In this document: positions 16,790 to 37,845 of the stretch, one piece after another | How the letters are laid out: each line of letters starts with the position of its first letter | How positions within the stretch are numbered: position 1 is the first letter of the stretch | Assembly: GCF_002214185.1 (NCBI RefSeq) | Contig: NZ_CP022161.1 | Location: forward strand, 10,299,486 to 10,363,485 | Direction: 5' to 3' | Length of the DNA stretch: 64,000 nt | Origin: Streptomyces capitiformicae | GTDB lineage: Bacteria; Actinomycetota; Actinomycetes; Streptomycetales; Streptomycetaceae | Position numbers and translations under genes: made by a program | The notes under the pieces: model-generated | What the model was told of the DNA's origin: nothing | The model's database searches: none | What the model saw: the letters and a program-made list of their open reading frames with translations, nothing else

Positions 16790-16790
16790 C

Positions 16791-18961: not shown

Positions 18962-19840
18962 GTGTACACCATCGGTGTCAACCCGTGGGTCTGGGCCTCG
19001 CCGGTCGACGACGAGGCCATGGCCGAGCTGGTGCCGCGGATCGCCGCGTTCGGTTTCGACGCGGTCGAGCTGCCGATCGAGCAACCCGGCGACTGGGACC
19101 CGGCCCGCACCCGGGACCTGCTGGCGGCGTACGGCCTGCGCGCGGTCGGCGTCTGTGCGGTCACCTCGCCCGGACGTGACCTCGTGAACGCCCCGCCGGA
19201 GGTCGTCGCCTCCACCGTGGCGTACCTGAAAACGTGTGTGGACAGTGCGGTGGCCGTCGGCGCGCCCTGCGTCGGCGGCCCGGTCTACGCCGCGGTGGGG
19301 CGGACCTGGCGCATGTCACCGGTGGAGCGCGCGGCCTGCTACGCGGACGTCCGCCGCGCCCTGCGGCCCGTGGCCGACTACGCGGGGGAGCGGGGCGTGA
19401 GCATCGGCGTCGAGGCCCTCAACCGCTACGAGACGAGCGTCGTCAACACGGTCGAGCAGGCGGTGGAGCTGGTCGACGGCCTGCCCGCGAACGTCGGTCT
19501 CATGATCGACACCTATCACATGAACATCGAGGAGGCCGACCCCTACGAGGCGCTCGTCACGGCTGGTCCGCACATCAAGCACGTCCAGGTCAGCGGCACC
19601 GACCGCGGCACCCCGGGCGCCGACCACTTCGACTGGCCACGCTTCCTCGCCGGCCTGGCCACGACCGGCTACGGCGGCGCGGTGTGCATCGAGTCGTTCA
19701 CCGCGCAGAACGAGGCCATCGCTACCGCGGCCTCGATCTGGCGGCCCCTTGCCCCGTCGCAGGACACCCTCGCCCGTGACGGGCTGTCCTACCTCCGAAC
19801 TGTCCTCCGCGGACTGGAGAACGCTCCCTTGACCGGGTGA
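18962..19840 (+). CDS. Sugar phosphate isomerase/epimerase, xylose-isomerase-like TIM barrel
   Basis: A 292-residue cytoplasmic TIM barrel of the AP-endonuclease-2/D-psicose 3-epimerase superfamily, probably isomerising or epimerising the imported sugar. Metal-binding and catalytic features include SIGVEALNRYET (Glu), GLMIDTYHMNIEE (Asp, His), HIKHVQVSGTDRGTPG and GAVCIESFTAQNE (Glu). The GTG start lies four bases after the receptor stop, with only a weak GGAAG ahead, so it is probably translated by coupling. It closes the operon. A ketose 3-epimerase is the best single guess, but the substrate is open. Confidence 0.85.
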   Translation: MYTIGVNPWVWASPVDDEAMAELVPRIAAFGFDAVELPIEQPGDWDPARTRDLLAAYGLRAVGVCAVTSPGRDLVNAPPEVVASTVAYLKTCVDSAVAVGAPCVGGPVYAAVGRTWRMSPVERAACYADVRRALRPVADYAGERGVSIGVEALNRYETSVVNTVEQAVELVDGLPANVGLMIDTYHMNIEEADPYEALVTAGPHIKHVQVSGTDRGTPGADHFDWPRFLAGLATTGYGGAVCIESFTAQNEAIATAASIWRPLAPSQDTLARDGLSYLRTVLRGLENAPLTG

Positions 19841-19869
19841 CAGGGGTGGGGTCGCCTTGGTCTTCAAAC

Positions 19870-19882
19870 GACGTAATACGTC
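19870..19882. promoter_or_regulatory. Palindrome GACGTAATACGTC, candidate operator
   Basis: A perfect 6-bp inverted repeat around one base, about 100 bases ahead of the beta-helix gene. GACGT-type palindromes are common for GntR-family dimers; this is only suggestive. Confidence 0.35.
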
Positions 19883-19983
19883 ATACGAATTGGCCCACCG
19901 GGAACCGCACCACGGTCCGACCGGTCTGTGCATCGACCGTGCCGTCATCCCCTTCGGCCCGGGAACCGCCATAAGGAGAAAAC

Positions 19984-22281
19984 GTGTTCACAACTCTCAC
20001 GATACGAAGGCGGCTCCTGGCCGGAGCCGCCACAGTCGGTTTAACCGCGACCGCCGTGATGGCGTTCCCCGCGCCCGCATCCGCAGCTCCCCGCACTGTG
20101 TACGTCTCGCCGTCCGGCACCGGCACTGACTGTTCCAGCGCGCAGCCGTGCTCACTGACAGCCGCGCAGGCGGCGGTGCGATCGCTCAACGACGCCATGT
20201 CGGACGACATCGTGGTGCAGTTGGCCGACGGTGTGTACCGGCTGGCTCAACCCTTGCGGCTGACGGCGGAGGACTCCGGCTCAGGCGGCCACACGGTCAT
20301 GTGGCAGGCCGCCCCGTCGGCGCGTCCGGTGATCACCGGTGCCCGGGCGGTCACCGGCTGGTCGGTGGCCGACGCAGCCAGGAACATCTGGAAGGCCGAC
20401 GTGCCCGCCGGTCTCGATGCCCGGCAGCTCTACGTCGACGGCGCCGTCGCCACCCGGGCACGCACGCAGGTGAACAGGGCCGATTTCACGGCCTCCAGCG
20501 CCGGAATGAGGTTCTCGGGCGGTGCGCTGAGCTATTTGAACAACCTGGCCAACCAGAGCCGGATCGAGGTGGAGAGCGTCAACTCCTTCACCGACCGGTA
20601 CTCGCCGGTGCAGAGCATCAGTGCGAACTTCATCACGATGCAGCAGCCGGCGTGGAACAACAACAACTTCGGCTACGACACCCTCATGCGGCCACACCGG
20701 GCCGGTCCGTTCTACCTGTCCAACGCGTACGAGTTCCTGGACTCGCCCGGCGAGTGGTACCTCAACCCCACGGCCGGAGCCTTGTACTACATCCCCCTGG
20801 CCGGGCAGAACATGAGCACCGTCAGCGTGGAACTGCCGACGCTGCAGTCGCTGGTGAACGTCGGGGGCACGTACAGCGAGCCGGCGCACCACATCACGTT
20901 CAGCGGGATCACCTTCACCGGTACGAGCTGGCTGGGCCCCAGCAGCAACCAGGGTTACGCAGACCAGCAGACCGGCGCGTACATCGCCGGCAACTGGAAC
21001 TGGCCGAGCTTCGACTCCTGCCACAACGGCTGCACGCAGTTCGAGGCCGCCCGGCCACACTGGCTGCAGATGCCGGCCGCCGTGCAGATCTCCGCCGCCA
21101 ACACCATCACCTTCACCGACTCCCGGTTCGTCAACCTGGGCCAGACGGCCATCGGTATCGGCAACGACGCCAACGCGCACGCCAGCGGCGTCGGCCTGGG
21201 CGCCGGCAACATCACGGTGACCCGGTCGGAGATCGCCCGGAGCTCAGCCGGTGGCATTCTCGTGGGCGGCGTGCGCGCCGACGCCCACCACCCCAGCGAC
21301 CAGCGCATGGTCAACAGGGACATCACGATCAGCAACAACCGCATCCACGACCTCGGGGCGGACCACCGGGGCATCGTCTCTGTCCTGACCACGTACGTCA
21401 CCAACAGCACCGTCGCCCAGAACGAGGTCTACAACATGCCGTACTCCGGCATGTCGATCGGGTACGGCTGGGGCGCCAACGACGCGGGCGGCAGTAACCA
21501 CTATGCCAACCGCGGCCTGTACAACTACCAGCCGCGCTACACGACGCCGACCACCGCGTCCAACAACCGGCTCATCGGCAACTACATCCACGATGTCATG
21601 CAGCAGATGAACGACGGTGGCTGCATCTACACGCTCGGATGGAACCCGAGCGCGCTGATCAGCCGGAACCACTGCCTGCGGACCAACGGACACTTCGGGC
21701 TGTACTTCGACGAGGGCTCGAAGTACTACACGGCCACCAACAATGTCTTCTCGAACACCGGTACGTGGGCGACGGCCAACTACTGGGGTGGCGAGAACAT
21801 GGGGAACTGGACCGTCACCAACAACTGGTCGACCAACGGCAGCACGAACGTGACCAACGGGGACCGCGGCAACGTGGTCTCCGGCAATGTCACGGTCACC
21901 AATGGCAACTGGCCGTCCGGCGCCCAGGACGTGATGGCGTCCGCCGGACCGCAGGACACCACCCCACCGCCGACAACGGCTCAGAGAATCGTGGGCGCGC
22001 AGTCCGGCCGCTGCCTGACCGTCCCCGGCTCCAGCACCACCAACGGCACCCAGATCCAACTCTGGGACTGCACCGGCGACCGGTCGTCGTGCTCGCGTAC
22101 ACCGATTTCCCGGTCAGCGTCCGCTGACCGGGGCACACACCAACAAAGAGGAGACATGATGTCCGACCCGGAAGAGCACATGACCGACCCCGAGTCCGCC
22201 GGTGAGGTGCTGCCCGACGAGGAACTGGACGCCATCGCGGGCGGCGATGCCGGCCGTAAGCCGCGTCCGCCCTACCTGTAG
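19984..22281 (+). CDS. Secreted right-handed parallel beta-helix enzyme with truncated ricin-B tail
   Basis: A secreted protein with a leader (about 1-35) and a long right-handed beta-helix (about 40-650), rich in NN-x-ITx-N turns. It opens with VYVSPSGTGTDCSSAQPCSL and VMWQAAPSARPVITGA, as in pectate-lyase-fold or GH141-like glycosidases. A ricin-B module follows (QSGRCLTVPGSSTTNG, QIQLWDC) and collapses at about 22078 after its first QxW. The remaining 67 codons are other DNA: a short tail, then the in-frame small peptide gene at 22156. The ribosome site is AAGGAGAA. The native gene therefore lacks its true 3' end. The lectin fragment is almost identical, over about 95 bases, to that of the esterase at 6012-6107. 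Confidence 0.75.
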   Translation: MFTTLTIRRRLLAGAATVGLTATAVMAFPAPASAAPRTVYVSPSGTGTDCSSAQPCSLTAAQAAVRSLNDAMSDDIVVQLADGVYRLAQPLRLTAEDSGSGGHTVMWQAAPSARPVITGARAVTGWSVADAARNIWKADVPAGLDARQLYVDGAVATRARTQVNRADFTASSAGMRFSGGALSYLNNLANQSRIEVESVNSFTDRYSPVQSISANFITMQQPAWNNNNFGYDTLMRPHRAGPFYLSNAYEFLDSPGEWYLNPTAGALYYIPLAGQNMSTVSVELPTLQSLVNVGGTYSEPAHHITFSGITFTGTSWLGPSSNQGYADQQTGAYIAGNWNWPSFDSCHNGCTQFEAARPHWLQMPAAVQISAANTITFTDSRFVNLGQTAIGIGNDANAHASGVGLGAGNITVTRSEIARSSAGGILVGGVRADAHHPSDQRMVNRDITISNNRIHDLGADHRGIVSVLTTYVTNSTVAQNEVYNMPYSGMSIGYGWGANDAGGSNHYANRGLYNYQPRYTTPTTASNNRLIGNYIHDVMQQMNDGGCIYTLGWNPSALISRNHCLRTNGHFGLYFDEGSKYYTATNNVFSNTGTWATANYWGGENMGNWTVTNNWSTNGSTNVTNGDRGNVVSGNVTVTNGNWPSGAQDVMASAGPQDTTPPPTTAQRIVGAQSGRCLTVPGSSTTNGTQIQLWDCTGDRSSCSRTPISRSASADRGTHQQRGDMMSDPEEHMTDPESAGEVLPDEELDAIAGGDAGRKPRPPYL
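22156..22281 (+). CDS. Small GG-leader peptide, candidate RiPP precursor
   Basis: A 41-residue peptide starting MMSDPEEHMTDPESAG with a consensus GAGGAG ribosome site. It holds an acidic leader ending LPDEELDAIAGG, then the short basic, proline-rich tail DAGRKPRPPYL. The leader resembles double-glycine leaders cut by C39 peptidases. The core has no Cys, Ser or Thr, so it cannot become a lanthipeptide or azole. It follows, by 20 bases, the apparent 3' end of another gene (frame ending AYTDFPVSVR), so it may have belonged to an operon that is now cut. It is read in frame with the chimeric beta-helix gene, but its own ribosome site argues for separate translation. Confidence 0.6.
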   Translation: MMSDPEEHMTDPESAGEVLPDEELDAIAGGDAGRKPRPPYL

Positions 22282-22850
22282 AAGGGACGGATCATCGACG
22301 ATGGGTGGTCTGGCGGAACGGCCGCCTGCCACCCGCGCCGATCACTACCGTCCGCACAGCGCGATCAGTTCCGCAGCCAGGACCTGACCCTGAATGATGG
22401 ACACCTCTGAGCCCGGCCCCAGGGGCCGGGGAGGATCTCTTATGGTGACGCAGGTCTACTCGCCCGAGTCCAAGGCGGATGAGGTCGCGCTGCATCCATC
22501 GGACCCGACCCACACCTTCGACGGTATCGGCAAGGACCTGGAGGCCGGTGCCCGACCGCTCCGACCGGCGCCGTCACGGCAAGGACGACGCCCTCGACGC
22601 GGAGCGCCGCCCACGCCGCGCTGGTCGACCTCGCCAACGGCAACCTGATCAAGAGGAAACCAACCCTCATCGGGGCCCTGCCCGGACAGGTCGAAGACCC
22701 ACCACGCCCGCAAGACCCGTGATCTCGCTCGCCAGTTCCTCGGCAACCGCGTCGCCCTCACACCGGCATCAGCCTGACCGGCCCGTCTCACTGCCATCCG
22801 ATCCGCGCGCGGCTCGGATGTTGCCGCCTGCCCTCCCGCACATCGATTGA
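22282..22850. other. Degenerate IS3-like transposase remains and a hairpin
   Basis: A 9-bp perfect hairpin (22412-22430, CCCGGCCCC with its complement) is followed by ATG 22442 and VYSPESKADEVALHPSDP, recognisably the start of an IS3-family OrfA HTH. The frame then dissolves; a later stretch (GKDDALDAERRP) recalls IS110-type transposases. A 28-codon frame at 22301 has a ribosome site but no recognisable content. Read as debris of at least one insertion element. Confidence 0.45.
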
Positions 22851-23263
22851 GCCTGTATGCCCGTGTGTCCTCGCACGATCAGAAGACCGATCTGGAACGC
22901 CAGGTCGCTCGGCTGTCGGCGTGGGCAGCGGTGGCCGGTCACCGAGTCGTTCGTGTTGAGGCAGAGATCGCTTCCGGGATGAACGGCTGCCGTTCCAGGG
23001 CTCGACGTCTGCTGGCCGACCCGAACGTGACCTGCGTGGTGGTGGAGCACAAGGACCGGCTCGGCCGGATGAACGTCGAACTTGTCGAGGCCGCCTTGTC
23101 CGCGACGGGCCGTCGCCTGCTGGTGCTGGACGACGGCGAGGTCGAAGACGACCTGGTGCGGGACATGGTGGAGTTACTGACGTCGTTCTGCGCCCGCTTG
23201 TACGGGCGCAGGTCGGCAAAGAACCGCGCCCGCAAGGCACTGGAGGCCGCCGAACATGGCTGA
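22847..23263 (+). pseudogene. IS607-family serine recombinase (TnpA), N-terminally truncated
   Basis: A 138-residue remnant with the small-serine-recombinase core YARVSSHDQKTDLERQ (catalytic Ser), VVVEHKDRLGRMNVELVEAAL and an FCARLYGRRSAKNRA tail. IS607 transposases normally carry an N-terminal MerR-like DNA-binding domain of about 60 residues. Here the frame begins directly at the catalytic domain, so the DNA-binding part is missing. Its stop overlaps the start of the tnpB-like frame by eight bases, the standard IS607 order. Confidence 0.75.
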
Positions 23264-24073
23264 CCTCCGCCCGATCGCCACGCCGTTCGTCGCTCTCGGC
23301 CCGTCCGGTGTGGCGGTACGTACCCGGCTGGGGGACCTCACGCCCGAGGATGAGAAGGTCCTGCGCTTGTGGCGCACCTGGGCACGCTCGCCTCGAAGGA
23401 CCTCAAAGAGCGTTGCATGGACGGCCTGGAGCACTCCACCGGGTCGTGGGCGGCCCGTAAGCGGGACCTGACGGCCCGAGTCGTCGTCCAGGTGGGCCGG
23501 GTCGATCACGAAGGCCACGCATGAGCAGTGGGCACTCGCCCGGCGCGGCCAGGCCGCGCACGTGTAGTCCCTCGAAGCCGGGATCACGACGATCCGGCAC
23601 CGGCTGTCGCTGCCGGTCGGGGAGAAGGGCACCAAGCGGGCTCCGGGCGGCTACCGCTCCACGCACGAGTGGTTCCAGAAGACGCGACGACCGCATGTGC
23701 TGGAGGACCGGCTCGAGAAGGTCCGGGCCGACCGGGAAGCGGGCCGGGTGCATGTCATGCGTGGCGGTAAGCGTCTGCTGGGCACCCGTCACAACCTTGA
23801 CAAGGCGCAGCTCACCGAGACCGAGTGGCGTCAGCGGTGGGAAGCCGGGCGCTGGTTCCTCCAGGCGGACGGCGAGTCGGGGAAAGCGTTCGGCAACGAG
23901 ACGATCCGCATCACGCCCGAGGGCGAGGTGTCGATCAGGCTCCCGGCCCCGTGCGCCGACCTGGCGAACGCCAAGCACGGCCGGTACGTACTCGCTGCGC
24001 AGGTGCGGTTCGCTCACCGGGGGCAGGAGTGGGCCGACCGTGTGGAGGCGAACCGGGCCGTGGCCTACCGCAT

Positions 24074-24112
24074 CCTCCCCCGCGCTCGGCTTCGCTCACT
24101 CGGGGGGACCCC
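24074..24112. repeat. Short palindromic G/C element inside tnpB
   Basis: A TCCCCC arm and a GGGGGGA arm flank a GCTCGGCTTCGCTC core. The segment interrupts the TnpB reading just before its RuvC-I block and resembles small palindromes dispersed in Streptomyces genomes (from memory). Confidence 0.5.
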
Positions 24113-24682
24113 CATCGACACCGGGCGCGGGCGCTGGTACGTGGACGCCTCCTGACAGATCCCTCCCACCACGGCCGTCCCACTCGAAGCCGCTCTCGCC
24201 GAGGGCGTGATCGGCGTGGACACCAACGCCGACCACCTCGCCGCATGGCGCCTTGACACTCACGGCAACCCGGTCGCCCGACCCCGCCGGTTCTTCTACG
24301 ACCTGTCCGGTACCGCCCAGCACCGCGACGCCCAGGTACGGCACGCCCTCACGCGGCTGCTGAACTGGGCCAAAACCCGCGGCGTCAACGCCATCGCGGT
24401 CGAAGACCTCGATTCCAGGCCGAGAAAACCAGAGAGAAGCACGGGCGCAAGCGCCGATTCCGGCAACTCATCTCCGGCATGCCGACCGGCAAGCTCCGCG
24501 CCCGGCTCACCTCCATGGCCGACGCCACGGGTATCGCGATCATCGCAGTGGACCCGGCCTACACCAGCAAGTGGGGCGCCCAGCACTGGCAAGCCGATGG
24601 CCGGCCCCACCTGTAAGACCACCCGGCACGATGCGGCGAGCATCGCGATCGGACGACGCGCCCAGGGACACCCGATCCGGCT

Positions 24683-24719
24683 GGGGGTACCTCCCAGGCC
24701 CTTAAGGCACGGGGGGAGG
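24683..24719. repeat. Second short palindromic G/C element inside tnpB
   Basis: GGGGGTACCTCCC followed by GGCCCTTAAGGC and GGGGGGAGG gives a folded hairpin with CCTCCC/GGGAGG ends. It lies in the decayed 3' part of tnpB. Confidence 0.5.
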
Positions 24720-25054
24720 ACGACACCGCCCCGTGCACACCAGAGCGATGTGCACGGGCATCGGACCGTCCAGGCCGACCAGCGTGCCCCTGGGCGTGAG
24801 GGACCCCGCCCCCGCATCCCCGGACCACGGACACGATCCGTGCCGCCGGACGCGGCGAGTACGCGGGCAACCAGGACACCCAACACCGTTCGGGATGTCC
24901 GCAGTGACCAGGTATGGGTCCAAGACTCACCCCTGGGGTGTGGCCGTCAAGTCTGCGCCGCAGCTGATTGCACGTTGCTGATTCGTGCTGTGGCCGCGGT
25001 CGGCCGGGCGGTCGGCGTCTTCAGTTTCTGAGCCGACGAACAACGGCTGCTCTA

Positions 25055-25106
25055 TTGGGCTCCGAGCCCAAAGCTTCGGCATTGGGCTCGGAGCCCAATG
25101 CCGAAG
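25055..25106. promoter_or_regulatory. Nested perfect palindromes upstream of the RiPP precursor array
   Basis: The first palindrome, TTGGGCTC-C-GAGCCCAA, is at 25055-25071. Three bases on, a 33-bp perfect palindrome (25074-25106) contains the same core extended by CTTCGGCA on each side. They end nine bases before the first precursor repeat unit. They could be a terminator, a pair of operator sites for one dimer, or an attenuator. Confidence 0.6.
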
Positions 25107-25180
25107 AGTTCGCAGGAATCTAACGTTCTCGGTGTCAGGGCGGTTCTCCGTCAGGAAATCCCAGAAAGAGAAGGTTAATC

Positions 25181-25369
25181 ATGGGTGCTGTAGACGAAAA
25201 TGACAGCCAGGCCGACGCGAGTGTGGAGCTTGTCGAGGAAGATCTCGACGACGTTGCCGGCGGGTGGGGCCCCCCTCCCATCAGGTTTAATCCCGGTTCG
25301 GAGGGCAGCGGATCTGGTCAGCCCTCCTCAGGCGGTGGGTCGGCGCCGATGGTGTCGGGCTGGCGCTAG
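25181..25369 (+). CDS. RiPP precursor peptide 1 (GG-leader, Pro/Gly/Ser-rich core)
   Basis: A 62-residue peptide. The acidic leader runs MGAVDENDSQADAS, then VELVEEDLDDVAGG, which fits the L-x-x-x-x-L-x-x-V-x-G-G pattern read by C39 leader peptidases. The predicted 34-residue core begins WGPPPIRFNPG and ends MVSGWR, with no Cys. The ribosome site is AGAGAAGG. Leader conservation with core variation across three adjacent copies is the signature of a ribosomal natural-product family. The C39 exporter 6.8 kb downstream could cut and export it. What modifies the core is unknown; SET-domain proteins follow the array. Confidence 0.8.
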   Translation: MGAVDENDSQADASVELVEEDLDDVAGGWGPPPIRFNPGSEGSGSGQPSSGGGSAPMVSGWR

Positions 25370-25447
25370 TCCCGCGCCGCGGGAATCTAACGTTCTCGGT
25401 GTCAGGGCGGTTCTCCGTCAGGAAATCCCAGAAAGAGAAGGTTAATC

Positions 25448-25651
25448 ATGGGTGCTGTAGACGAAAATGGCCGCGAGGCCGACGTGAGTGTGGAGCTTGT
25501 CGAGGAAGATCTCGACGGCGTTGCCGGCGGGTGGGCCCCCCCTCCCGTCACGTTTCCGCCGCCCGGTTCGGGGGGCTCCGGTTCGGGGGGCCCCAGACCT
25601 ATTATCTCAAACGGCCCTCCGCAGGCTCCGTCGGCGCCGCCCCGGCGCTAG
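25448..25651 (+). CDS. RiPP precursor peptide 2 (GG-leader, Pro/Gly/Ser-rich core)
   Basis: A 67-residue copy of the array. The leader is MGAVDENGREADVS plus VELVEEDLDGVAGG; the 39-residue core starts WAPPPVTFPPPGSGG and ends SAPPRR. Compared with copy 1, the W-x-PPP opening is kept, but the rest has diverged in length and order. There is no Cys, and Ser is the main hydroxyl residue. It has the same 66-base upstream block and ribosome site. The stop is followed by the unit-boundary motif GTCCCGCGCC. Confidence 0.8.
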   Translation: MGAVDENGREADVSVELVEEDLDGVAGGWAPPPVTFPPPGSGGSGSGGPRPIISNGPPQAPSAPPRR

Positions 25652-25729
25652 TCCCGCGCCGCAGGAATCTAACGTTCTCGGTGTCAGGGCGGTTCTCCGT
25701 CAAGAAATCCCAGAAAGAGAAGGTTAATC

Positions 25730-25870
25730 ATGGGTGCTGCAGACGAAAATGACTACGAGGCCGACGTGAGTGTGGAGCTTGTCGAGGAAGATCTCGACGG
25801 CGTTGCCGGCGGCAACGGAAAGTTTGATGAAAAGAACACCGGGAATTGGGACAAGCACGCTAAGCGTTAG
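25730..25870 (+). CDS. RiPP precursor peptide 3 (GG-leader, Lys-rich core)
   Basis: A 46-residue peptide. The leader MGAADENDYEADVS plus VELVEEDLDGVAGG matches the other two copies. The 18-residue core NGKFDEKNTGNWDKHAKR is wholly different: it is charged and carries four Lys spaced at about four residues. Lys is the natural substrate of SET-domain methyltransferases, two of which are encoded 246 bases further on. That link is my inference. The gene was identified from the repeated upstream block and ATG; it ends with TAG at 25868-25870. Confidence 0.8.
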   Translation: MGAADENDYEADVSVELVEEDLDGVAGGNGKFDEKNTGNWDKHAKR

Positions 25871-26115
25871 TCCCGTGCCTGGGGAGGTCGCCGGGTAAAG
25901 CTGCGGTCGGCTCTGTATCTGCCGGTTGTCCGCCTGGTCGACTGTGTCGTGCGCGGTGGCCTGGAGTATTTGTTCCGGGTCACCGCACTCGGTGAAAGGG
26001 CCGGTTTGCCCGGCGATTCAGGATTCAAGTCGATGGGGGGCGACCGCGGAGCCAGGAGAGGGGCGGCGGGAGCTCGTGAACACGTCGATACTGGCGTGTT
26101 GGAAGGTGTGCTGAC

Positions 26116-26574
26116 GTGAGTGATCTGGAAGTTCGTAACTCTTCCTGCGGGCGTGGCGTGTTCGCCCTCCGAAGTTTCCAGGAAGGGGAGGTGGTCCAAC
26201 GATGTCCTGTCATGGTTGTTCCTCCGACGGAGTGCCAGTATCGGCGGGTCATTCGAGCCCTTTCTTTCTATAGCTATACCTGGACGGAGCCGCATTGGCC
26301 GGGGCGGGGAACGGCGATCTGTCTGGGGTACGGCTCGCTGTTCAACAATTCAGATGACGACCCGAATCTGACATGGATGCCTGACCCTGACAGCGCTCGA
26401 GCGATCGTCTTCAGTGCGAAACGCGACATTGCGGTCGGCGAGGAACTCACCCACAGCTACAACTGGTCGGAAGAGCACGCCAAGATCGGCTTCGGGCCTA
26501 CCGACATCGACGGTTTGCCTATCGTGGAGTCGGCGTCCGCTGCGGGCGCGGGGAATTCCCGCGAAGGAAGGTGA
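26116..26574 (+). CDS. Small SET-domain protein, first of a pair
   Basis: A 152-residue protein with the compact SET fold. SCGRGVFALRSFQEGEVV is the N-terminal SET motif, GYGSLFNNSDDDPNLTW takes the place of the NHSxxPN cofactor loop, and VGEELTHSYNW is the ELxxDY-like catalytic Tyr segment. SET enzymes methylate Lys using S-adenosylmethionine. The catalytic Asn-His pair is altered (NNS rather than NHS), so activity needs care. GTG 26116 has GGAAGG ahead. It is somewhat less G/C-rich than its flanks, suggesting transfer. It lies between the precursor array and the azole-forming genes, with its paralogue six bases downstream. Confidence 0.8.
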   Translation: MSDLEVRNSSCGRGVFALRSFQEGEVVQRCPVMVVPPTECQYRRVIRALSFYSYTWTEPHWPGRGTAICLGYGSLFNNSDDDPNLTWMPDPDSARAIVFSAKRDIAVGEELTHSYNWSEEHAKIGFGPTDIDGLPIVESASAAGAGNSREGR

Positions 26575-26580
26575 TCGAGG

Positions 26581-27060
26581 ATGAACGGGCTCGAGATTCG
26601 TGACACGGCGCATGGCCGTGGGGTGTTTGCGACCTGTGCTTTCCGGGTGGGTGATGTGGTCGAGCGCTGTCCGGTGGTGCTGGTCCCGCCGGCCGAACTG
26701 GTATTCGTTCCGCACGTGCGCGCTCTTGCCTATAGTTGGTTTCATTGGGTTCAGCCGCACTGGGAGAAGGGCGGTGGCGCCATCTGCCTGGGGTACGGCG
26801 CTCTGTACAACTCCTGTGACGAACCGAACCTCTCTTGGGACAGTGCTGCTGATGAGGAGCGCGTGATCGTCTTCACCGCGCTGCGTGATATCGAGCCAGG
26901 CGAGGAACTGACCTACAAGTACGCCTGGCCCGACTGGGTCGCGCGCACGGGATTCGGTCCAATCGACGCCGACGGCCTACCGCTCCAGGTGCCGCGGCGT
27001 TCCCAGGTGGCTATGAACAACTCATCTGCGGCATTCGCCACGACGCATCTCGTACCTTAG
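26581..27060 (+). CDS. Small SET-domain protein, second of a pair
   Basis: A 159-residue paralogue of the preceding gene, alike along its whole length: AHGRGVFATCAFRVGDVV, a GYGALYNSCDEPNLSW loop (NSC in place of NHS) and PGEELTYKYAWPDW. The last 25 residues are unlike the first copy. The start ATG 26581 has GAGG ahead and lies six bases after the first copy's stop, so the pair is co-translated. Two diverged copies could act on different precursors or form a heterodimer. A protein-lysine methylase unrelated to RiPPs is the alternative. Confidence 0.8.
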   Translation: MNGLEIRDTAHGRGVFATCAFRVGDVVERCPVVLVPPAELVFVPHVRALAYSWFHWVQPHWEKGGGAICLGYGALYNSCDEPNLSWDSAADEERVIVFTALRDIEPGEELTYKYAWPDWVARTGFGPIDADGLPLQVPRRSQVAMNNSSAAFATTHLVP

Positions 27061-27166
27061 CCGTCGAGGTCTCGACGGGTTATTTCACGGATGCGTAGCC
27101 GCCTTGCTCGGCAAGACATTCAGGGCATCAGCTCTGGCCTGCCCATCGAAATCGACGGAGAACGGG

Positions 27167-27535
27167 ATGTCACCGATGGAGCCTGATGGCAGAGCCGTTT
27201 TCGTCAACGGCTACACCAAGATCCTCACCGGTGCGTGGTCGAGCGAGGAGTTCTCGCTACGGCTGGAGGCCGACCCGGTGTCGGTTCTCGCCGAGAACGG
27301 GCTCGCCGTCGAGGCGGGCTCGCGTGTCGATATCGTCCGGATCCGCGACGGGGAACCCGATCTCCAGACCCAGATGCAGCTCTGGGAGATCGGACGCCGG
27401 TCGGGCCACTACGTCCTCTACGTACCGGAGCTCCCCCAACTGGATGTCCGTGACCTCGCGGACGAGGAACTCGGCGGCCTCGCCGGCGGTGGAGGCACCA
27501 GCTACTGCTGCAACCCGTGCTGCTGCCAGTCCTGA
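27167..27535 (+). CDS. Nitrile-hydratase-type leader peptide with Cys-rich core (azole RiPP precursor)
   Basis: A 122-residue precursor with a long folded leader resembling the alpha subunit of nitrile hydratase (NHLP family). FSLRLEADPVSVLAENGLAV and VDIVRIRDGEPD are the family segments, ending DVRDLADEELGGLAGG. The core GGTSYCCNPCCCQS holds five Cys plus Thr and Ser, ideal for conversion to thiazoles and oxazoles. ATG 27167 with GGAGAACGGG ahead is preferred over an upstream start. The next genes encode the cyclodehydratase, the dehydrogenase and the matching NHLM export system. The product class (thiazole/oxazole-modified microcin) follows from family knowledge; the structure is unknown. 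Confidence 0.9.
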   Translation: MSPMEPDGRAVFVNGYTKILTGAWSSEEFSLRLEADPVSVLAENGLAVEAGSRVDIVRIRDGEPDLQTQMQLWEIGRRSGHYVLYVPELPQLDVRDLADEELGGLAGGGGTSYCCNPCCCQS

Positions 27536-27556
27536 GCCGTCTCTACTCCACGTTGG

Positions 27557-29824
27557 ATGGACCCTGTGTTCGACAAGCCACGCCTCAGGGCGCACCTGAC
27601 GGCAAGGACCTCCGGATCTGCGCGGGTCTTCCTCATCGCGGAGGACCGTTACCACCTGGTCCACGGCGTCGCTGCCGCGGCGGTCGTGCCCTACCTGGAC
27701 GGCACGCACACCCTGGCGGACATTGTCGAAGCGACCAGCGCGGAGATCAGCTACACCGACTGCGTTCTGGCCCTGGCGACCTTCTTCACCTCCGGCCATC
27801 TCACCGAGGGTGAGGTGACCGACCTTCACGCCGACGCCGCTTGGGAGGCGCGTGGCGTGTCGGGCGCCGAGGCAGCACGTCGCTTGGCCTCGCGGACCGT
27901 GACGCTGGTGCGGGTGGGGGAACCACCTGTGGAGGACATCGTGACCGCGTTGCGGACCTGCGGTGTCCGAGTGCGAGTGGGCGATCCGTCGCCGGAGCGC
28001 GGACCGGTCGTGGTGGTGACCGACGAGTACCTGGATCCCCGGCTTTCCGAGCTCGACGCAGTGTTCCGTGCCGAGGGCCGTTCCTGGCTGCTGGCCAAAC
28101 CGACCGGTCTCGAGGTCTGGGTCGGACCGTACTTCCGTCCTGGACTCACCGGGTGCTGGCATTGCCTCGCCGAACGGCTGGACGGCAACCGGCCGATCGG
28201 GCAGTACCTGCGGATGTCCACGGGCGACCAGGAACCCGTCCGAGCCTCGATCGCGGCGTCGCCCGCGTCCCTTGGGCTGGCCGCGTACCTCATCGCGAAC
28301 GTGGTCACCGCCATGCTGATCGACGACAAACTCCCGGAGCTGGAAGGGGTTCTGCTGTCGGTACGCACGACGACGCTGGAGTCCGAACGGCACGAGCTGG
28401 TCCGCCGGCCGCAGTGCCCCGCGTGCGGCAGCCCTACGTCGGTTGTGCCCGCGAAGATCGAACTCACCGATGGGTACGTGCCCGTCGCGCTCGAGGGCGG
28501 ACGGCGGACCGTGCCGGTCGAGGCAACCCACCGGCGGCTGGCGAAGCACGTCAGCCGGCTGCTCGGAGCCGTCAGCACCCTGCGGCCGGTGGACGGCACG
28601 CGTGAAGGCGTCGCGCACAACTATGTGGCGGGCCACAACTTCGCCGTACGGCCGCACAACCTGGAGGTGCTGCGCCGCACGCTGCGTGGGCAGAGCGGCG
28701 GGAAGGGGCACAGCGACATACAGGCCAGGACAGGCGCGCTCTGCGAGGCGCTCGAGCGGTACTGCGGCGTGTGGCGCGGCGACCAGCCGATCACCACAGC
28801 CGGCCTGGCCGCGCTCGGTGAAACAGCAGTGGCGCCCAACAACCTGCTCCTGTTCTCAGAACAACAGTACGAGCGCCGCCTCAGGTGGAACGCGTCCCCT
28901 GCCGCCGGACGGCTGCACACCGTGCCTGTGCCGCTGGACCCGTTCCGGCCGATCAGCTGGAGCACCGCCTGGTCGCTGACCCACGAGCGGGAACGGCTGG
29001 TACCAGCCGGGTACGCCTGGTTCGGCCACCCCGACCTGGACGAGCACGGGTACTGCGTGCCGGATGCCAACGGCAACGCGGCGGGCAACACGATCGAAGA
29101 GGCTGTGCTCCAAGGGTTCTGCGAACTCATCGAGCGCGACGGCGTCGCGCTGTGGTGGTACAACAGGGCGCTGCGGCCCGGGTTCGACCTCGACAGCCTG
29201 TGTGATCCGCTCGTCGACCGGCTCCGCGGGTTCCACGCCGAGCAGGGGCGTGAGATCTGGGTGCTCGACCTCACCACCGACCTCGGCGTACCGACGTTCG
29301 CCGCGGTGTCGCGGCGGGTCGACCACCCGGTGCAGGACGTGCTGCTCGGCTTCGGCGCGCATCTGGACGTGCGCATCGCGGTCCTGCGCGCGCTGTCCGA
29401 GCTCAACCAGTTCCTGCCGAGCGTCGCCGAGCGGCGGCCCGACGGGAGCTCCGTGTACCGCGAGGACGACAAGTCCATCGTGGACTGGCTGACGACCGTG
29501 CGAGTCGAGCAGGAGCCCTGGCTGCTCCCGAGCCCGTCGGCGCCCACCTCGCTCACGACCTACCCCGTCCTGGGGGGCGAGGACCTTGCCGAGGACGTGC
29601 GGCTTTGCGTGCGTATCGCCCAGCGCGCCGGCCTTGAGATGATCGTCCTCGACCAGACCCGGCCGGACATCGAGCTGGCTGTGGTGAAGGTCATGGTCCC
29701 CGGCCTGAGGCACTTCTGGCGCAGGCTCGGCCCCGGCAGGCTGTACGACGTCCCGGTCCGGCTCGGCTGGCTCGACACCCCGACGACCGAGGACGGGTGC
29801 AACCCCGTCAGCGTCTTCGTGTGA
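27557..29824 (+). CDS. ThiF-like/YcaO fused cyclodehydratase
   Basis: This enzyme converts Cys, Ser and Thr of the core into azolines using ATP. Of 755 residues, about 1-330 form the leader-binding ThiF-like (ocin_ThiF) domain with two zinc pairs (GCWHCLAERLDGNRP and CPACGS). About 380-755 form the YcaO domain with QARTGALCEALERYCGV and NTIEEAVLQGFCELIERDG, the Glu-rich ATP/Mg sites. The C-terminus NPVSVFV lacks the PxPxP ending common in this family, which is unusual. ATG 27557 lies 21 bases after the precursor stop, with little ribosome site, so coupling is likely. Homologues are found with SagB-type partners, as here. Confidence 0.93.
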   Translation: MDPVFDKPRLRAHLTARTSGSARVFLIAEDRYHLVHGVAAAAVVPYLDGTHTLADIVEATSAEISYTDCVLALATFFTSGHLTEGEVTDLHADAAWEARGVSGAEAARRLASRTVTLVRVGEPPVEDIVTALRTCGVRVRVGDPSPERGPVVVVTDEYLDPRLSELDAVFRAEGRSWLLAKPTGLEVWVGPYFRPGLTGCWHCLAERLDGNRPIGQYLRMSTGDQEPVRASIAASPASLGLAAYLIANVVTAMLIDDKLPELEGVLLSVRTTTLESERHELVRRPQCPACGSPTSVVPAKIELTDGYVPVALEGGRRTVPVEATHRRLAKHVSRLLGAVSTLRPVDGTREGVAHNYVAGHNFAVRPHNLEVLRRTLRGQSGGKGHSDIQARTGALCEALERYCGVWRGDQPITTAGLAALGETAVAPNNLLLFSEQQYERRLRWNASPAAGRLHTVPVPLDPFRPISWSTAWSLTHERERLVPAGYAWFGHPDLDEHGYCVPDANGNAAGNTIEEAVLQGFCELIERDGVALWWYNRALRPGFDLDSLCDPLVDRLRGFHAEQGREIWVLDLTTDLGVPTFAAVSRRVDHPVQDVLLGFGAHLDVRIAVLRALSELNQFLPSVAERRPDGSSVYREDDKSIVDWLTTVRVEQEPWLLPSPSAPTSLTTYPVLGGEDLAEDVRLCVRIAQRAGLEMIVLDQTRPDIELAVVKVMVPGLRHFWRRLGPGRLYDVPVRLGWLDTPTTEDGCNPVSVFV

Positions 29825-29834
29825 AGGCGCCACC

Positions 29835-31139
29835 GTGATCACCAATGAGATCTCGCTGCGGCCAGGGGTACGGGTACGGCCCGACACGGACGGGTTGGTC
29901 CGGGTGTTCTCCCCGTTCGGCGGTGTACGGCTCGGCGAGCACAGCCGGAACGTGCTCGACCGGCTGGCCGCGGGTCCGTGCGACCTGGTTGAGCTGCTGA
30001 CGCCGGACGTGACCGGGGCGCACGCGCTGCTGGGCCGGCTCGGCGCCCGCGGTTTTCTGCGCACGACGATGTACCACGACGGGCGGCCGCTGCTGTCGTT
30101 CCCCGGTTCCCCCATGGTGTGTTCCACCCGGGGACAGCTGGTCCTGTCGCGGTTCGCGCTCGTCCACCGCGAGGACGACCGGCTGGTGCTGGAGTCCTCC
30201 CGCACGGGTGTGGTCGTTGAGGTGCACGACACCGCTCTGCTGAACGTGCTCGCCGAACCGGCGCGGTACCCATGGGCGGCGCCCGTGGTGGACGTCTTGG
30301 CGGCCCAGGGGTTCCTCGTCCCCGCGGAGGCCGAGCATGACGATTTCGACCTCGCCAAGTGGAGTCCGCATGAGCTGTGGTTTCACACCCGCAGCCATGC
30401 GGGTGACGACGGGCGGCCGTGGGGCGGCACGCGCTGGGCCGAAGGCCGGTTCGAACCGTTGCCTGCCCACCGGCCGGAGTTCCCGGGCCCCGTGGTGGAG
30501 CTGTCGGAGCCGGGCGTGCCGGACGTGCCCGTCGTGGGGCGCACGGTCCGCGCGCAGGACCACGCGAACCCCATGACGCTCGATCAGCTCTCGGAGTTCC
30601 TGCACCGCACCGTCCGCATCCGTCGCGTGTGGACGGACGGCGTCGCGGATCTGGTGGAACGTCCCTTCCCCTCCGGTGGAGCACTGCACGAACTGGAGAT
30701 CTACCCGGTCGTGACAACCGTGCGGGGCCTGCACCCGGGGCTCTACCACTACGACTCCGCCCGACACGTGCTGCACCTGGTTCGCGAGGACGGCCCGCTC
30801 GTGCGTCGGCTTGCCGACCACGCGACCAGGGCCGCGAACCTCGATCGCGCGCCGCAGGTCCTGCTCGTGATCAGTGCGAGGTTCGGACGCGTGATGTGGA
30901 AGTACCAGTCAATGGCGTACGCGCTGACATTGAAGAACACCGGCGTGCTGACGGCCGCGATGTACGCCGTCGCCACCGCGATGGGCCTCGCGCCGTGCGC
31001 GGTCGGCGGTAGCGACAGCGGGCTGTTCGCCCGCGCGACCGGCCTGGACGCGACGAAGGAGTCGACCGTGGGCGAGTTCATGCTCGGCTCGGCCCCCGTC
31101 GGTGTCGGACCAAGAGAAAGGAGTAGTAGCCAGTGGTAA
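29835..31139 (+). CDS. SagB-type FMN dehydrogenase (azoline oxidase)
   Basis: A 434-residue enzyme that oxidises azolines to aromatic thiazoles or oxazoles using FMN. The N-terminal 200 residues are a winged, partner-binding region. The C-terminal nitroreductase-like domain (about 235-434) carries RTVRIRRVW, PSGGALHELEIYPVV, LYHYDSARHVLHLVR and a KNTGVLTAAMYAVATAMGLA helix typical of SagB and McbC-like oxidases. The Lys-Tyr pair in WKYQSMAYAL matches the catalytic motif described for McbC/BcerB enzymes. GTG 29835 follows the cyclodehydratase by ten bases, and its stop overlaps the next gene. Confidence 0.92.
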   Translation: MITNEISLRPGVRVRPDTDGLVRVFSPFGGVRLGEHSRNVLDRLAAGPCDLVELLTPDVTGAHALLGRLGARGFLRTTMYHDGRPLLSFPGSPMVCSTRGQLVLSRFALVHREDDRLVLESSRTGVVVEVHDTALLNVLAEPARYPWAAPVVDVLAAQGFLVPAEAEHDDFDLAKWSPHELWFHTRSHAGDDGRPWGGTRWAEGRFEPLPAHRPEFPGPVVELSEPGVPDVPVVGRTVRAQDHANPMTLDQLSEFLHRTVRIRRVWTDGVADLVERPFPSGGALHELEIYPVVTTVRGLHPGLYHYDSARHVLHLVREDGPLVRRLADHATRAANLDRAPQVLLVISARFGRVMWKYQSMAYALTLKNTGVLTAAMYAVATAMGLAPCAVGGSDSGLFARATGLDATKESTVGEFMLGSAPVGVGPRERSSSQW

Positions 31140-31945
31140 CTATAAGGTTTCGGAGCAAAGCGCTCGACAGGCTCAACCAACGTGATGACCTCGACGCGCC
31201 TGCGGAGCTGACTCGTCCGCGCACCTGGATCGCGCTCGTAGTCGTCGCGGTGCTGGTGGTCGGCGGCGGAGTCTGGGCGATGAACGCTGAGTTGCCCCGC
31301 AAAGTCGCCGCGTCGGGCATCCTCACCTATTCGGAGGGCAGTTTCTCCCTGCAGAGCCCGGTGTCGGGGCAGATCAACGGTGTCTACGTCGACCAGGGCG
31401 ACACCTTTCCCGCCGGCACACCTATATTCAGTGTCCAGGTCGGCAAACGCGTCGAGGTGGTCAAGGCGATCACGGGCGGTCGGATCACCGCGATGCTCGG
31501 CAAGCTCGGCCAGGTGATCTCCGCTGGTTCCGAGCTGGCGGTGGTCGAGCGGATCGACGGCAAGAACGACCAGCTTGTCGCGGTGCTGTACGTACCCACC
31601 ACCGATGCGGGTCAGGTGCGCAAGGGCAGTCAGGTCGACCTCGCCGTGCGCTCGGCGCCCGCACAGGAGTACGGCGTCCTGCGCGGCGTGGTGCAGTCGA
31701 TCAGCCAGTTCACCGAGAGCAGGCAGCAGATCACGGACTTCCTCGGCGACGATCAGCTCGGCGAGCAGTTCTCCAGCCAGGGCCAGCCGCTGAAGGTCGT
31801 CGTGAAGCTCCTACCGCGTCAGACTGCCAGCGGCTATGAGTGGTCGACCCAGTCCGGTCCGCCCTTCCGTATCGACTCCCGGACGCTGGTCGACGGGGCG
31901 CTGTACCTGCCCCCGATCAAGCCGATCGACTGGGTGGTGCTGTAG
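31133..31945 (+). CDS. HlyD-like membrane fusion protein of the NHLM export system
   Basis: A 270-residue accessory protein with one N-terminal membrane helix (TWIALVVVAVLVVGGGVWAM, about 30-50) and a periplasm-facing-type biotinyl/lipoyl beta-barrel. SFSLQSPVSGQINGVYVDQG and FPAGTPIFSV are the half-motifs of the fold, and GRITAMLGKLGQVISAG is the second. It should dock on the ABC exporter and guide the mature peptide out; in a Gram-positive cell this is an extracytoplasmic adaptor. GTG 31133 overlaps the dehydrogenase stop by seven bases. Confidence 0.88.
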   Translation: MVTIRFRSKALDRLNQRDDLDAPAELTRPRTWIALVVVAVLVVGGGVWAMNAELPRKVAASGILTYSEGSFSLQSPVSGQINGVYVDQGDTFPAGTPIFSVQVGKRVEVVKAITGGRITAMLGKLGQVISAGSELAVVERIDGKNDQLVAVLYVPTTDAGQVRKGSQVDLAVRSAPAQEYGVLRGVVQSISQFTESRQQITDFLGDDQLGEQFSSQGQPLKVVVKLLPRQTASGYEWSTQSGPPFRIDSRTLVDGALYLPPIKPIDWVVL

Positions 31946-34105
31946 ATGAGCACCACTTACCGGAAGGTCCAAACGCCCAGTGTCCTCCAGATGGAGGTGG
32001 TGGAGTGCGGCGCCGCCAGCCTCGCGATGGTGCTTGCCTATTACAGGCGTTTCGTGCCGCTGGAAGAGCTCCGTGTGGCGTGCGGCGTCTCCCGCGACGG
32101 TTCCAAGGCGTCCAACCTGATCAAGGCCGCGCGCAGCTACGGCATGGTCGCCAAGGGCATGCAGCTCACACCGGAGTCACTGGCCGGCATCAAGCCACCA
32201 GCCATCGTCTTCTGGGAGTTCAACCACTTCATAGTCCTGGAAGGCATCGGACGTCGGTGGGGCAAGCCGGTCGTGTATGTCAACGACCCGGCGGAGGGCC
32301 GCCGGGTGCTGACCGCGGAGGAGTTCGACGAGGGCTTCACCGGCGTCGCTCTGCTGATGGAGCCGGGTGACGATTTCAAGCCCGGCGGGCGCCGCCCTGG
32401 CATCCTCGCCGGTTTGCCCGCGCGGTTGCGCGGCACCGGGGGCATGGTCCTGCTCGGTGCGCTCGCGAGCCTGCTGCTGATGGTGCTCGGCGTCGCCACC
32501 CCCGCCTTCACCCGCGCCTACGTGGACAATGTGCTGCTGGGCGGGGACACCTCGATCCTGATGCCGCTCGCGTTGCTGATGGCCTGCACCGTGGCGGGCA
32601 CGGTCGCGCTGACCGCGTTGCGCCAGTCCTTCCTGGTCCGCGCACAGATCACCAGCGCCACGCTCAGCAGCGCACGCTTCCTGCGGCACCTGTTCCGGCT
32701 GCCGCTGCAGTTCTTCGCCCAGCGAAGCGCCGCCGACCTGACCAGCCGCATGAGCTCCAACGAGAATGTGGCGCAGATGCTGTCACGCGACCTGAGCGGT
32801 GTCGTCGTCGACGCGCTGGTCGTGCTGCTGTACGCGGGCTTGCTATGGAGCTACAACCCCGAACTCACCATGCTCGGTGTGGCGATGGCCTTGTTGAACG
32901 TGGTGGCACTGCGGACAGTCGCCCGCCTCCGCTCGACCCGAGTGCACAAGCTCGCGGCGGACGAGTCCACGATGATCGGCGTGTCCTACAACGGACTTGA
33001 GCTCATCGAGACGCTGAAGGCCACTGGCGGGGAGAACGAGTACTTCCGCAAGTGGGCCGGAGCGTACGCGAAGGTGCTGACCGGCGAACAGCGGACCGCG
33101 ACGCCCACTGCAGTGCTGTCGGTCGTCGCGCCCACGCTCGCGGCACTCAACAGCGCGATGATCCTGCTGGTCGGTGGCCTGCAAGCGGTCGAAGGACACA
33201 TCACGATCGGCGTGCTGGTGGCGTTCCAAGCATTGATCACGTCGTTCACCGGCCCGATCACCCAGCTCACCGGCACCATGGGGCAGATTCAGGACTTCGG
33301 CGTCGATGTGGCGCGCCTGCGTGACGTCGAGAACTTCCCGCCCGAGGACATCGACGAGGCTGTAGAACCGGAGCGCGTACGCAAGCTGGACGGCCGGGTC
33401 CGGTTCGACGACGTGACCTTCGGATACAGCCCGCTGGGCGTACCGCAGCTGGCAGACTTCACGCTTGAGGTCGGGCCTGGCGAACAGATCGCGCTGGTGG
33501 GCGGATCCGGCAGCGGCAAGTCCACGGTGTCCCGCCTGATGGCAGGCCACTACCAGCCGTGGAACGGCGCGGTGTTGGTCGACGGGCTGCCCAGGACAGC
33601 CATCCCCCGCAGTGTCCTCGCCGCGTCGGTGGCGTTCGTGGATCAGGAGATCTTCCTCTTCGAGGGCACCGTGCGGGACAACGTGACACTGTGGGACACC
33701 ACGATCAACGACGACGAGGTCGTCGCCGCGCTGAAGGACGCCGAAGTCTACGACGTGGTCTCCGGCCGCAAGGGCGGCATCCACAGCCGCGTACTCGAGG
33801 ACGGCCGCAATTTCTCCGGCGGCCAGCGGCAGCGCCTGGAGATCGCCAGGGCGCTCGTCCGCGCGCCGAGCGTGCTGGTGCTCGACGAGGCCACCAGCGC
33901 GCTGGACGCAGAGACGGAGCGGCGCATCACCGCCAACCTCCGGCGACGCGGTTGCGCGACCGTGGTGATCGCGCACCGGCTGTCCACCATCCGCGACAGC
34001 GACGAAATCCTGGTGCTGAACAAGGGAAGCGTCGTGGAACGGGGTAAGCACGACGACCTCGTCCTGGCAGGCGGGCCGTACGCCGAGTTGATCAGGGAGC
34101 ACTGA
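31946..34105 (+). CDS. C39 peptidase / ABC exporter of the NHLM type
   Basis: A 719-residue peptide exporter that removes GG-leaders during transport. The N-terminal C39 Cys protease (about 1-140) shows Cys in QMEVVECGAASLAMVL, His in FWEFNHFIVLEG and Asp in YVNDPAEG, so the catalytic set is intact. Six membrane helices (about 165-430) follow, then the ATPase with Walker A GGSGSGKST, signature FSGGQRQRLEIARAL and Walker B VLVLDEATSALD. The start directly follows the stop of the HlyD-like gene. It could process both the azole precursor (LGGLAGG) and the three tandem precursors (LDGVAGG), which share the cleavage pattern. Confidence 0.93.
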   Translation: MSTTYRKVQTPSVLQMEVVECGAASLAMVLAYYRRFVPLEELRVACGVSRDGSKASNLIKAARSYGMVAKGMQLTPESLAGIKPPAIVFWEFNHFIVLEGIGRRWGKPVVYVNDPAEGRRVLTAEEFDEGFTGVALLMEPGDDFKPGGRRPGILAGLPARLRGTGGMVLLGALASLLLMVLGVATPAFTRAYVDNVLLGGDTSILMPLALLMACTVAGTVALTALRQSFLVRAQITSATLSSARFLRHLFRLPLQFFAQRSAADLTSRMSSNENVAQMLSRDLSGVVVDALVVLLYAGLLWSYNPELTMLGVAMALLNVVALRTVARLRSTRVHKLAADESTMIGVSYNGLELIETLKATGGENEYFRKWAGAYAKVLTGEQRTATPTAVLSVVAPTLAALNSAMILLVGGLQAVEGHITIGVLVAFQALITSFTGPITQLTGTMGQIQDFGVDVARLRDVENFPPEDIDEAVEPERVRKLDGRVRFDDVTFGYSPLGVPQLADFTLEVGPGEQIALVGGSGSGKSTVSRLMAGHYQPWNGAVLVDGLPRTAIPRSVLAASVAFVDQEIFLFEGTVRDNVTLWDTTINDDEVVAALKDAEVYDVVSGRKGGIHSRVLEDGRNFSGGQRQRLEIARALVRAPSVLVLDEATSALDAETERRITANLRRRGCATVVIAHRLSTIRDSDEILVLNKGSVVERGKHDDLVLAGGPYAELIREH

Positions 34106-37074: not shown

Positions 37075-37076
37075 CC

Positions 37077-37845
37077 ATGAGGAACAAGTGCTTGGTCGCC
37101 GGTCTCGTGCTGGTGTGTGTCCTTCCGCTCGCCGGGTGCGGTTCTGCCACGCCCTCTGCCGACGCCGCGCCCGCGTCGCCACCCATCGTGTCCACCACCG
37201 AGGCGGACAGGGTGCTCACCGCCTACGACGTCGGCAACAACAAGGTCAACTCGACAGCCGACGCAGCGGGTCTGGCGAAGATCGAGAGCACTCCCCTGCG
37301 CGTGGCCAGTGAAGCCGAACTCGAGGCCAATAAGGTGCTCGATCAGTCCATACCGTTGATCAAAAGCACCGACCAACGCTTCATGATCCCGTCAAGAAGC
37401 GCCGACCTGCCCTGGTTTGTGTCCATCAGTACCCGCCTGCACGGCGGGGTGGTGGCGACGAACCAGACCTACACCGTATTCAAGCGGCAGGATAAGGGCG
37501 CCCCTTGGCTGGCGGCGTACTCACTCACCCCGCCGGCGGATGTGCAGGTGCCTGCCGTCACGCTCAACGGCGCATCAGCGGCCACGGCGGTGAACGATTT
37601 CGGCGACCTTGCCCTGCAGCCCGACGAGCTCGCCCAGCGGATCTTCGCCCACTACAAGCAGGACGTCGCGGGCAGGGACATCTTCGGCACGAGCGCCGTG
37701 CTGGACGACCAGCTCGGCAACGGCTTCAAGGCCGCGTTGCGGGTGTTGCGCGGCAAGGGAACCCAGTTGGTCCGCACGGTGAAGCCGGGTCCGCCGCAGG
37801 CGTTCGCGCTGCGCACGGCCGACGGCGGCGCGCTGGTTCGTGCCG
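37077..37845 (+). pseudogene. Lipoprotein at the end of the RiPP operon, C-terminus lost
   Basis: About 256 residues are native. A lipobox LPLAGC gives a lipid-anchored Cys near residue 20. VLTAYDVGNNKVNSTAD and FMIPSRSADLPWFVSISTR resemble actinobacterial extracytoplasmic lipoproteins of the DUF8094 kind (recalled, not searched). ATG follows the exporter stop by two bases with AAGGAG inside that gene, so it belongs to the operon. A role in immunity or in export at the cell surface is conceivable. At about 37845, within TADGGALV, the sequence turns into the antisense of a ricin-B module. The frame then runs on by chance through the opposite-strand galactosidase. Confidence 0.7.

Follow-up and report, generated by a model that had tools for sequence, protein, structure and literature searches.

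A cassette of Gly-Gly precursors and paired SET-domain genes in a TOMM/NHLP-type RiPP locus of Streptomyces capitiformicae

Thiazole/oxazole-modified microcin (TOMM) clusters of the NHLP type with NHLM export contain an NHLP-like precursor, YcaO/SagD, SagB, HlyD, and a C39-ABC transporter, and the portions of Haft, Basu and Mitchell (2010, PMC2887384) that deal with them report that precursors and export systems mix and match. Known bacterial SET-domain proteins act on proteins, mainly chromatin-like ones, according to excerpts of two papers (PMC10117894, PMC3980110). In this study, we analyzed a 64,000-nucleotide stretch of the Streptomyces capitiformicae genome (contig NZ_CP022161.1; the whole stretch is called the window), in which three leader-repeat precursor genes, P1 to P3, and two SET-domain genes, SET1 and SET2, stand at the front of a collinear 15-kb locus for ribosomally synthesized and post-translationally modified peptides (RiPP). 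An earlier interpretation from the letters alone (the sequence-only reading) had proposed that these precursors and SET genes form a possible new RiPP class. A stand-alone class was ruled out, since the locus runs on into YcaO, SagB, and an NHLM exporter. Because of this continuation, the locus, which lies between two inverted lectin fragments, is a TOMM/NHLP-type RiPP cluster carrying an extra cassette. In the open-licence literature we found no earlier description of a cassette of Gly-Gly precursors and SET genes within a TOMM/NHLP cluster, nor of SET in any bacterial RiPP locus, although either may have been described elsewhere. The cassette has the following features (window coordinates).

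25054..25099, no strand: tandem 19-bp palindromes of the TTGGGCT-N3-AGCCCAA type, 27 bp start to start
25115..25180, plus strand: conserved 5' block of P1, repeated before P2 (~25382-25447) and P3 (~25664-25729)
25181..25369, plus strand: P1 precursor, 28-aa leader and 34-aa core (WGPPPIRF..SGWR), lysine-free
25448..25651, plus strand: P2 precursor, 28-aa leader and 39-aa core (WAPPPVTF..PPRR), lysine-free
25730..25870, plus strand: P3 precursor, 28-aa leader and 18-aa core (NGKFDEKNTGNWDKHAKR) with 4 lysines
26116..26574, plus strand: SET1, small SET-domain protein of 152 aa; PF00856, 50.5 bits (cut-off 22.4)
26581..27060, plus strand: SET2, SET1 paralogue of 159 aa, starting 6 nt past SET1; PF00856, 45.2 bits (cut-off 22.4)

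The three adjacent precursors with near-identical 5' blocks and leaders, as first described in the sequence-only reading, were present. GAGAAGG lies immediately upstream of each of P1-P3, and a near-identical 67-nt block precedes each ATG. Pairwise DNA identity among the three was 97-99% for the 5' blocks and 92-94% for the leaders (84 nt). The leader end DLDGVAGG, which had been given for all three, did not hold for leader 1, where it is DLDDVAGG. Identity had also been said to end exactly at the Gly-Gly; this was true only for P3, whose core showed 27% DNA identity to that of P1 or P2, whereas the P1 and P2 cores were 63% identical and begin alike with W[GA]PPP[IV]xF. Arg-TAG closes each of the three cores, and beyond the stop identity rose again to 70-95% over the next 20 nt. 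Because the Arg-TAG end is common to P1-P3 and conserved sequence resumes after the stop, the core is a variable insert between a conserved leader and a conserved end. The differences among the leaders were mostly amino-acid changing (dN 0.06-0.10, dS 0-0.06) and are too few to interpret.

P1-P3 have the marks of Gly-Gly precursors cut by C39 peptidases, namely a short leader ending in Gly-Gly, acidic/hydrophobic spacing, and a variable core. The Gly-Gly assignment of the sequence-only reading is borne out, and the collinear locus itself encodes a C39 peptidase. Pfam gave no match at E 1 that would place P1-P3 in a named bacteriocin family, and all of their NCBIfam matches were below cut-off.

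The two paralogous SET genes were likewise real. SET1 and SET2 were 50% identical to each other (dN 0.41, dS 1.66), and the dN/dS of approximately 0.25 argues that both are kept as proteins by purifying selection. They are the two domain-intact SET matches of the genome, and both lie here, between the precursors and the TOMM genes on the same strand. The nearest solved chains by sequence were SET domain-containing protein 7 (5h6z, 2.5e-10) and PBCV-1 vSET (1n3j, 4.3e-8). Both proteins have the SET domain and the C-terminal catalytic Tyr in its GEELTxxY context (GEELTHSY in SET1, GEELTYKY in SET2), and both lack the N-H(S) motif that binds S-adenosylmethionine (SAM). An AlphaFold model of SET1 (mean pLDDT 33.6) was too poor to judge the site and was not used.

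A second locus in the same genome carries the same association. A profile of SET1 and SET2 detected a third, broken SET match at G000:C1:10898171-10898317, approximately 573 kb away. The locus around it (L044) is on the minus strand and contains, in order, P6, tandem palindromes, the block motif, P5, the SET remnant, the 5' part of an NHLP precursor, and the 3' part of the lipoprotein gene that also closes the window locus. Its two peptide genes are as follows.

L044 10461-10646, minus strand: P6, Gly-Gly open reading frame (ORF) before the tandem palindromes
L044 9840-9986, minus strand: P5, Gly-Gly ORF with an MGTPDEKN..EVAGG leader and a lysine-bearing core ending in Arg

The SET remnant lacks the first 60 residues and the catalytic end, and the NHLP-precursor part is frame-broken and directly followed by the lipoprotein part. 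DNA identity between this locus and the window was 80% over 100 nt for SET, 74% over 230 nt for the NHLP precursor, and 97% over 118 nt for the lipoprotein part. The simplest reading makes the second locus an old sister of the entire cluster, in which an internal deletion runs from the NHLP precursor into the lipoprotein gene. Because the decayed copy keeps the same gene order, SET is read here as a component of this locus family and not a chance neighbor; chance proximity was rejected as the main account on the same ground. The last 118 nt of the lipoprotein ORF were far more alike than the rest, which suggests conversion or a recent copy. A 72-nt stretch (94%) by the truncated lipoprotein (L044 8800-9286) recurs near a second NHLM locus of the genome (L077 18206-18353), and a shorter match to this repeat lies at window 24084-24123; these are ends of a repeated element near RiPP loci.

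The two loci also have their control elements in common. The 19-bp palindrome (up to two mismatches) occurred at four sites in the 11-Mb genome, one pair before P1 and one before P5, both spaced by 27 bp, and the control gave 0. Among 199 genomes of the genus, the palindrome pair was found in one, the genome studied here. It is most likely an operator pair. The block motif ATCTAACGTTCYCGRNGTCA (up to two mismatches) also occurred four times in the genome, three times before P1-P3 and once before the P5 leader (reversed control, 0). A model of all six leaders matched these six, by construction, and beyond them only two sequences, both weakly (E 0.40 and 0.86). An Rfam scan of 19000-38000 gave no match at gathering scores, and a promoter scan gave no promoter-like site. 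One terminator-like site was found at 27061-27078, below the 1.8 expected from shuffling.

Downstream of the SET genes, the same strand carries the NHLP-like precursor and the modification and export genes in the order listed, and the last TOMM/export gene ends at 37074.

27167..27535, plus strand: NHLP-like TOMM precursor, core GGTSYCCNPCCCQS after LAGG
27557..29824, plus strand: YcaO/SagD cyclodehydratase with leader-binding domain; TIGR03604 254 bits and TIGR03882 134 bits, both above cut-off; PF02624
29835..31139, plus strand: SagB/ThcOx-type azoline dehydrogenase; TIGR03605 158.8 bits; PF22767, PF00881
31133..31945, plus strand: HlyD-like secretion protein of the NHLM exporter; TIGR03794 148.6 bits, slightly below the cut-off of 156.2
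31946..34105, plus strand: NHLM exporter carrying an N-terminal C39 peptidase that presumably cuts the leaders; TIGR03796 956.8 bits (cut-off 853.3); PF03412
34105..37074, plus strand: second ABC transporter subunit; PF00664, PF00005
37077..37840, plus strand: lipoprotein-like ORF (LPLAGC); no Pfam family above cut-off

The ORF at 27167-27535 stayed below cut-off with both NHLP models (TIGR03793, 23.2 bits, cut-off 50.9; TIGR04351, 24.5 bits, cut-off 65) and was 46-51% identical to the precursors of the closest YcaO clusters. Two hallmarks of NHLP/TOMM clusters were found, a YcaO with the TOMM leader-binding domain and an NHLM export system with a C39 peptidase. The lipoprotein-like ORF is a possible immunity protein; its 3' end is apparently cut where an inverted ricin-lectin fragment begins. 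Such fragments flank the locus at window 22000-22100 and 37833-37920 (40-bp match, 88%), hinting that it may have entered by recombination between lectin genes. A candidate fourth Gly-Gly precursor adjoins the truncated lectin gene on the other side.

22156..22281, plus strand: P0, leader ..LPDEELDAIAGG and core DAGRKPRPPYL; GAGGAG upstream of the ATG

The start of P0 was inferred, its reading frame being that of the upstream ORF. A recombinase gene (PF00239) and about 1.2 kb of broken frames separate P0 from P1. Over window 22847-24616 this region comprises the serine recombinase and, after it, broken frames in which Pfam found nothing; it may be an IS607-like element.

At somewhat less than even confidence, we favor a reading in which swapped-core Gly-Gly peptides are exported by the NHLM system and SET methylates lysine-bearing cores such as that of P3. 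The cluster would then be a single RiPP locus that holds two sets of precursors. The Cys-rich NHLP-like peptide would presumably be heterocyclized by YcaO and SagB, while P1-P3, and probably P0, would be cut after the Gly-Gly and exported via the NHLM C39 transporter. SET1 and SET2, both locus-specific SET proteins, would most likely act before export and methylate lysines in those cores that have them (P3 and, in the decayed copy, P5), and P1 and P2 would be modified by something else or left unmodified. In line with this, the decayed copy keeps the palindrome pair, the block motif, a leader peptide, the SET remnant, the NHLP remnant, and the lipoprotein 3' end in order. The palindrome is confined to the two loci, GEELTxxY is kept, the cores of P3 and P5 bear lysines, and a C39 exporter is part of the locus. 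That SET enzymes decorate the peptides is plausible. A more doubtful proposal is that the SET pair was recruited as a peptide-tailoring enzyme acting on exchangeable Gly-Gly cores, with the exporter and operator pair common with the azole system and two chemically different product lines as the outcome.

Several observations weigh against the methylation of the cores. P1 and P2 have no lysine in either leader or core, so the idea that each precursor offers a lysine fails, and lysine methylation is possible only for P3 among P1-P3. No other single fact speaks as strongly against SET simply tailoring every precursor. Of the 18 core residues of P3, 4 are lysines; P5 has 5 in total (3 in 23 core residues and 2 in the leader), and P0 and P6 have one each. 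The sequence-only reading had proposed the Lys-rich core, that of P3, as the methylation substrate. Neither SET protein has the motif His. N-H-S is replaced by N-N-S in SET1, N-S-C in SET2, and N-Y-G in the remnant, whereas N-H was present in 21 of 24 relative SET stretches, the other 3 being too short to cover the motif. The G+C content of the cassette was 0.60-0.63 compared with 0.70 for YcaO, and its G+C at third codon positions was also lower; the cassette may have arrived later and have a history of its own.

The distribution of the genes points in the same direction. Scans of genus, phylum, and order revealed no second genome with a SET and precursor association; its two copies are both in the genome studied here. 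This genome was the only one of 392 in the genus with the SET1 protein. Counting it each time, PF00856 was found in 11 of 100 relatives, and the SET1+SET2 profile matched 13 of the 396 phylum genomes and 3 of the 127 in the order. When one genome per species (84,980 species) was scanned for patterns, 34 and 27 stretches came back, none coding for a relative, in a set from which records near the own genome may be left out. SET relatives were found in 7 of 72,556 plasmid records (at most 38.5% identity) and, as one weak partial match (L110, 29% identity), in viral contigs. No P1-P3 leader was found in plasmids or viral contigs. In the 392 genus genomes, the leader model, which detects close leaders only, missed P5, and would let distant ones escape, found leaders in the own genome alone; the homologous leaders without SET genes that could have contradicted the sequence-only reading were thus not seen outside this genome. 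A match to the model in G374 covered only the Gly/Ser-rich core part (positions 28-62), contained an internal stop, and was dropped as spurious.

We then read 26 other SET loci, several of them short: 10 among the relatives, 11 from the profile matches of the phylum (12 other matching genomes, less G719 with an internal stop), and 5 plasmid stretches (5 of the 7 records, one of the five without annotation). At 1e-3, YcaO, SagB, and HlyD found no match in any of them; several had ABC matches, 25-38% identical to the exporter ATPases. A Gly-Gly scan, which was also what covered NHLP precursors, found none in these loci and five in the window as control. SET homologues therefore do occur outside RiPP loci, an outcome named beforehand as contrary to the sequence-only reading. 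YcaO relatives at E 1e-100 or better were present in 106 of 384 genomes. In the best nine of the 106 besides our own, 56 to about 41% identical, the fetched stretches held no SET and no P1-P3 relative. Two of these loci (L111, L112) have the full TOMM gene set and two Cys-rich precursors each without SET, and because of this the TOMM core does not need SET.

With P1 and P2 lysine-free, the roles left for SET are P3-type cores or a cellular target. We consider it unlikely, but worth weighing, that the SET pair leaves the peptides alone and serves the locus in immunity or regulation, by methylating lysines of a cellular protein such as the exporter, a nucleoid protein, or the target of the peptides. 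Lysine is missing from two of the three precursors, and yet SET is under purifying selection and present in both copies, and the excerpted papers on bacterial SET proteins (PMC10117894, PMC3980110) mostly concern chromatin-like protein targets. However, there is no candidate target, SET lies where a tailoring gene would usually be, after the precursors and before the NHLP precursor, and the lipoprotein-like ORF is a better candidate for immunity. Loss of the motif His in all three SET sequences, where all 21 stretches covering the motif have N-H, raises the rather improbable option that these proteins are independent of SAM and bind or scaffold, for example as leader carriers, without methylating. 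The kept GEELTxxY end speaks against it, as does the activity of some eukaryotic PR/SET proteins that lack the canonical N-H motif.

A comparably slim chance is that P1-P3 are plain peptides of the Gly-Gly bacteriocin kind, or serve YcaO as azole substrates via Ser, with SET as a passenger of the cassette. The lower G+C of the cassette, including third positions, fits this, as does the mixing of precursors and export systems in the relevant portions of PMC2887384. A second NHLM exporter locus of the same genome (L077, G000:C1:146000-165900; 11182-17516; TIGR03796 1024 bits) is also consistent with it. L077 has HlyD, C39-ABC, a second ABC, and a single Gly-Gly peptide whose core is rich in Ala, Val, and Gly, and no YcaO relative in the stretch read; because of this pairing, Gly-Gly peptides need not be modified. 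The co-occurrence of SET with the leaders in both copies and its purifying selection are harder to reconcile with a passenger. Very improbable is that SET serves the TOMM branch by modifying a lysine in the NHLP leader or in YcaO/SagB, and not P1-P3. In both copies SET immediately precedes the NHLP precursor, but the Cys-rich core is lysine-free and related TOMM clusters do without SET.

Should SET act on the peptides, a lysine methyltransferase fold famous from eukaryotes would enter RiPP tailoring and could supply a small enzyme with which to methylate lysines in designed peptides. Whatever SET does, the locus places two precursor families with different leaders next to one NHLM exporter and displays core swapping between conserved ends, and its decayed sister copy makes the association testable.

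Compared with known systems, the locus resembles the NHLP/TOMM clusters with NHLM export in the pertinent parts of PMC2887384 by its set of precursor, YcaO, SagB, and exporter, and by a Gly-Gly followed by a hypervariable core. It differs from them by the extra cassette of three Cys-free precursors with 28-aa leaders and two SET genes; the main text of that paper does not use the term "SET domain". The YcaO clusters of G366 and G398 in the same genus (L111 and L112) are also similar, with a 56% identical YcaO, NHLP precursors ending in a Cys run, SagB, HlyD, ABC1, and ABC2, but no SET or P1-P3 relative was detected there. Each of these two clusters carries two near-identical NHLP precursors of the DNTYCCCCCPCCTCT Cys-run type with an ABC ATPase-like gene between them (L111 6363-9127, L112 9272-11981). 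P1-P3 are like class II (unmodified) Gly-Gly bacteriocins with C39 ABC export in their short acidic Gly-Gly leader and the C39 exporter of the locus, and unlike them in matching no NCBIfam bacteriocin family at cut-off, in the SET genes, and in the common C-terminal Arg. SET1 and SET2 share with PBCV-1 vSET and SET domain-containing protein 7 a single small SET domain with a GEExxxxY end, whereas their N-N or N-S in place of N-H, their C-terminal GFGPxDxDGLP extension, and their RiPP context set them apart.

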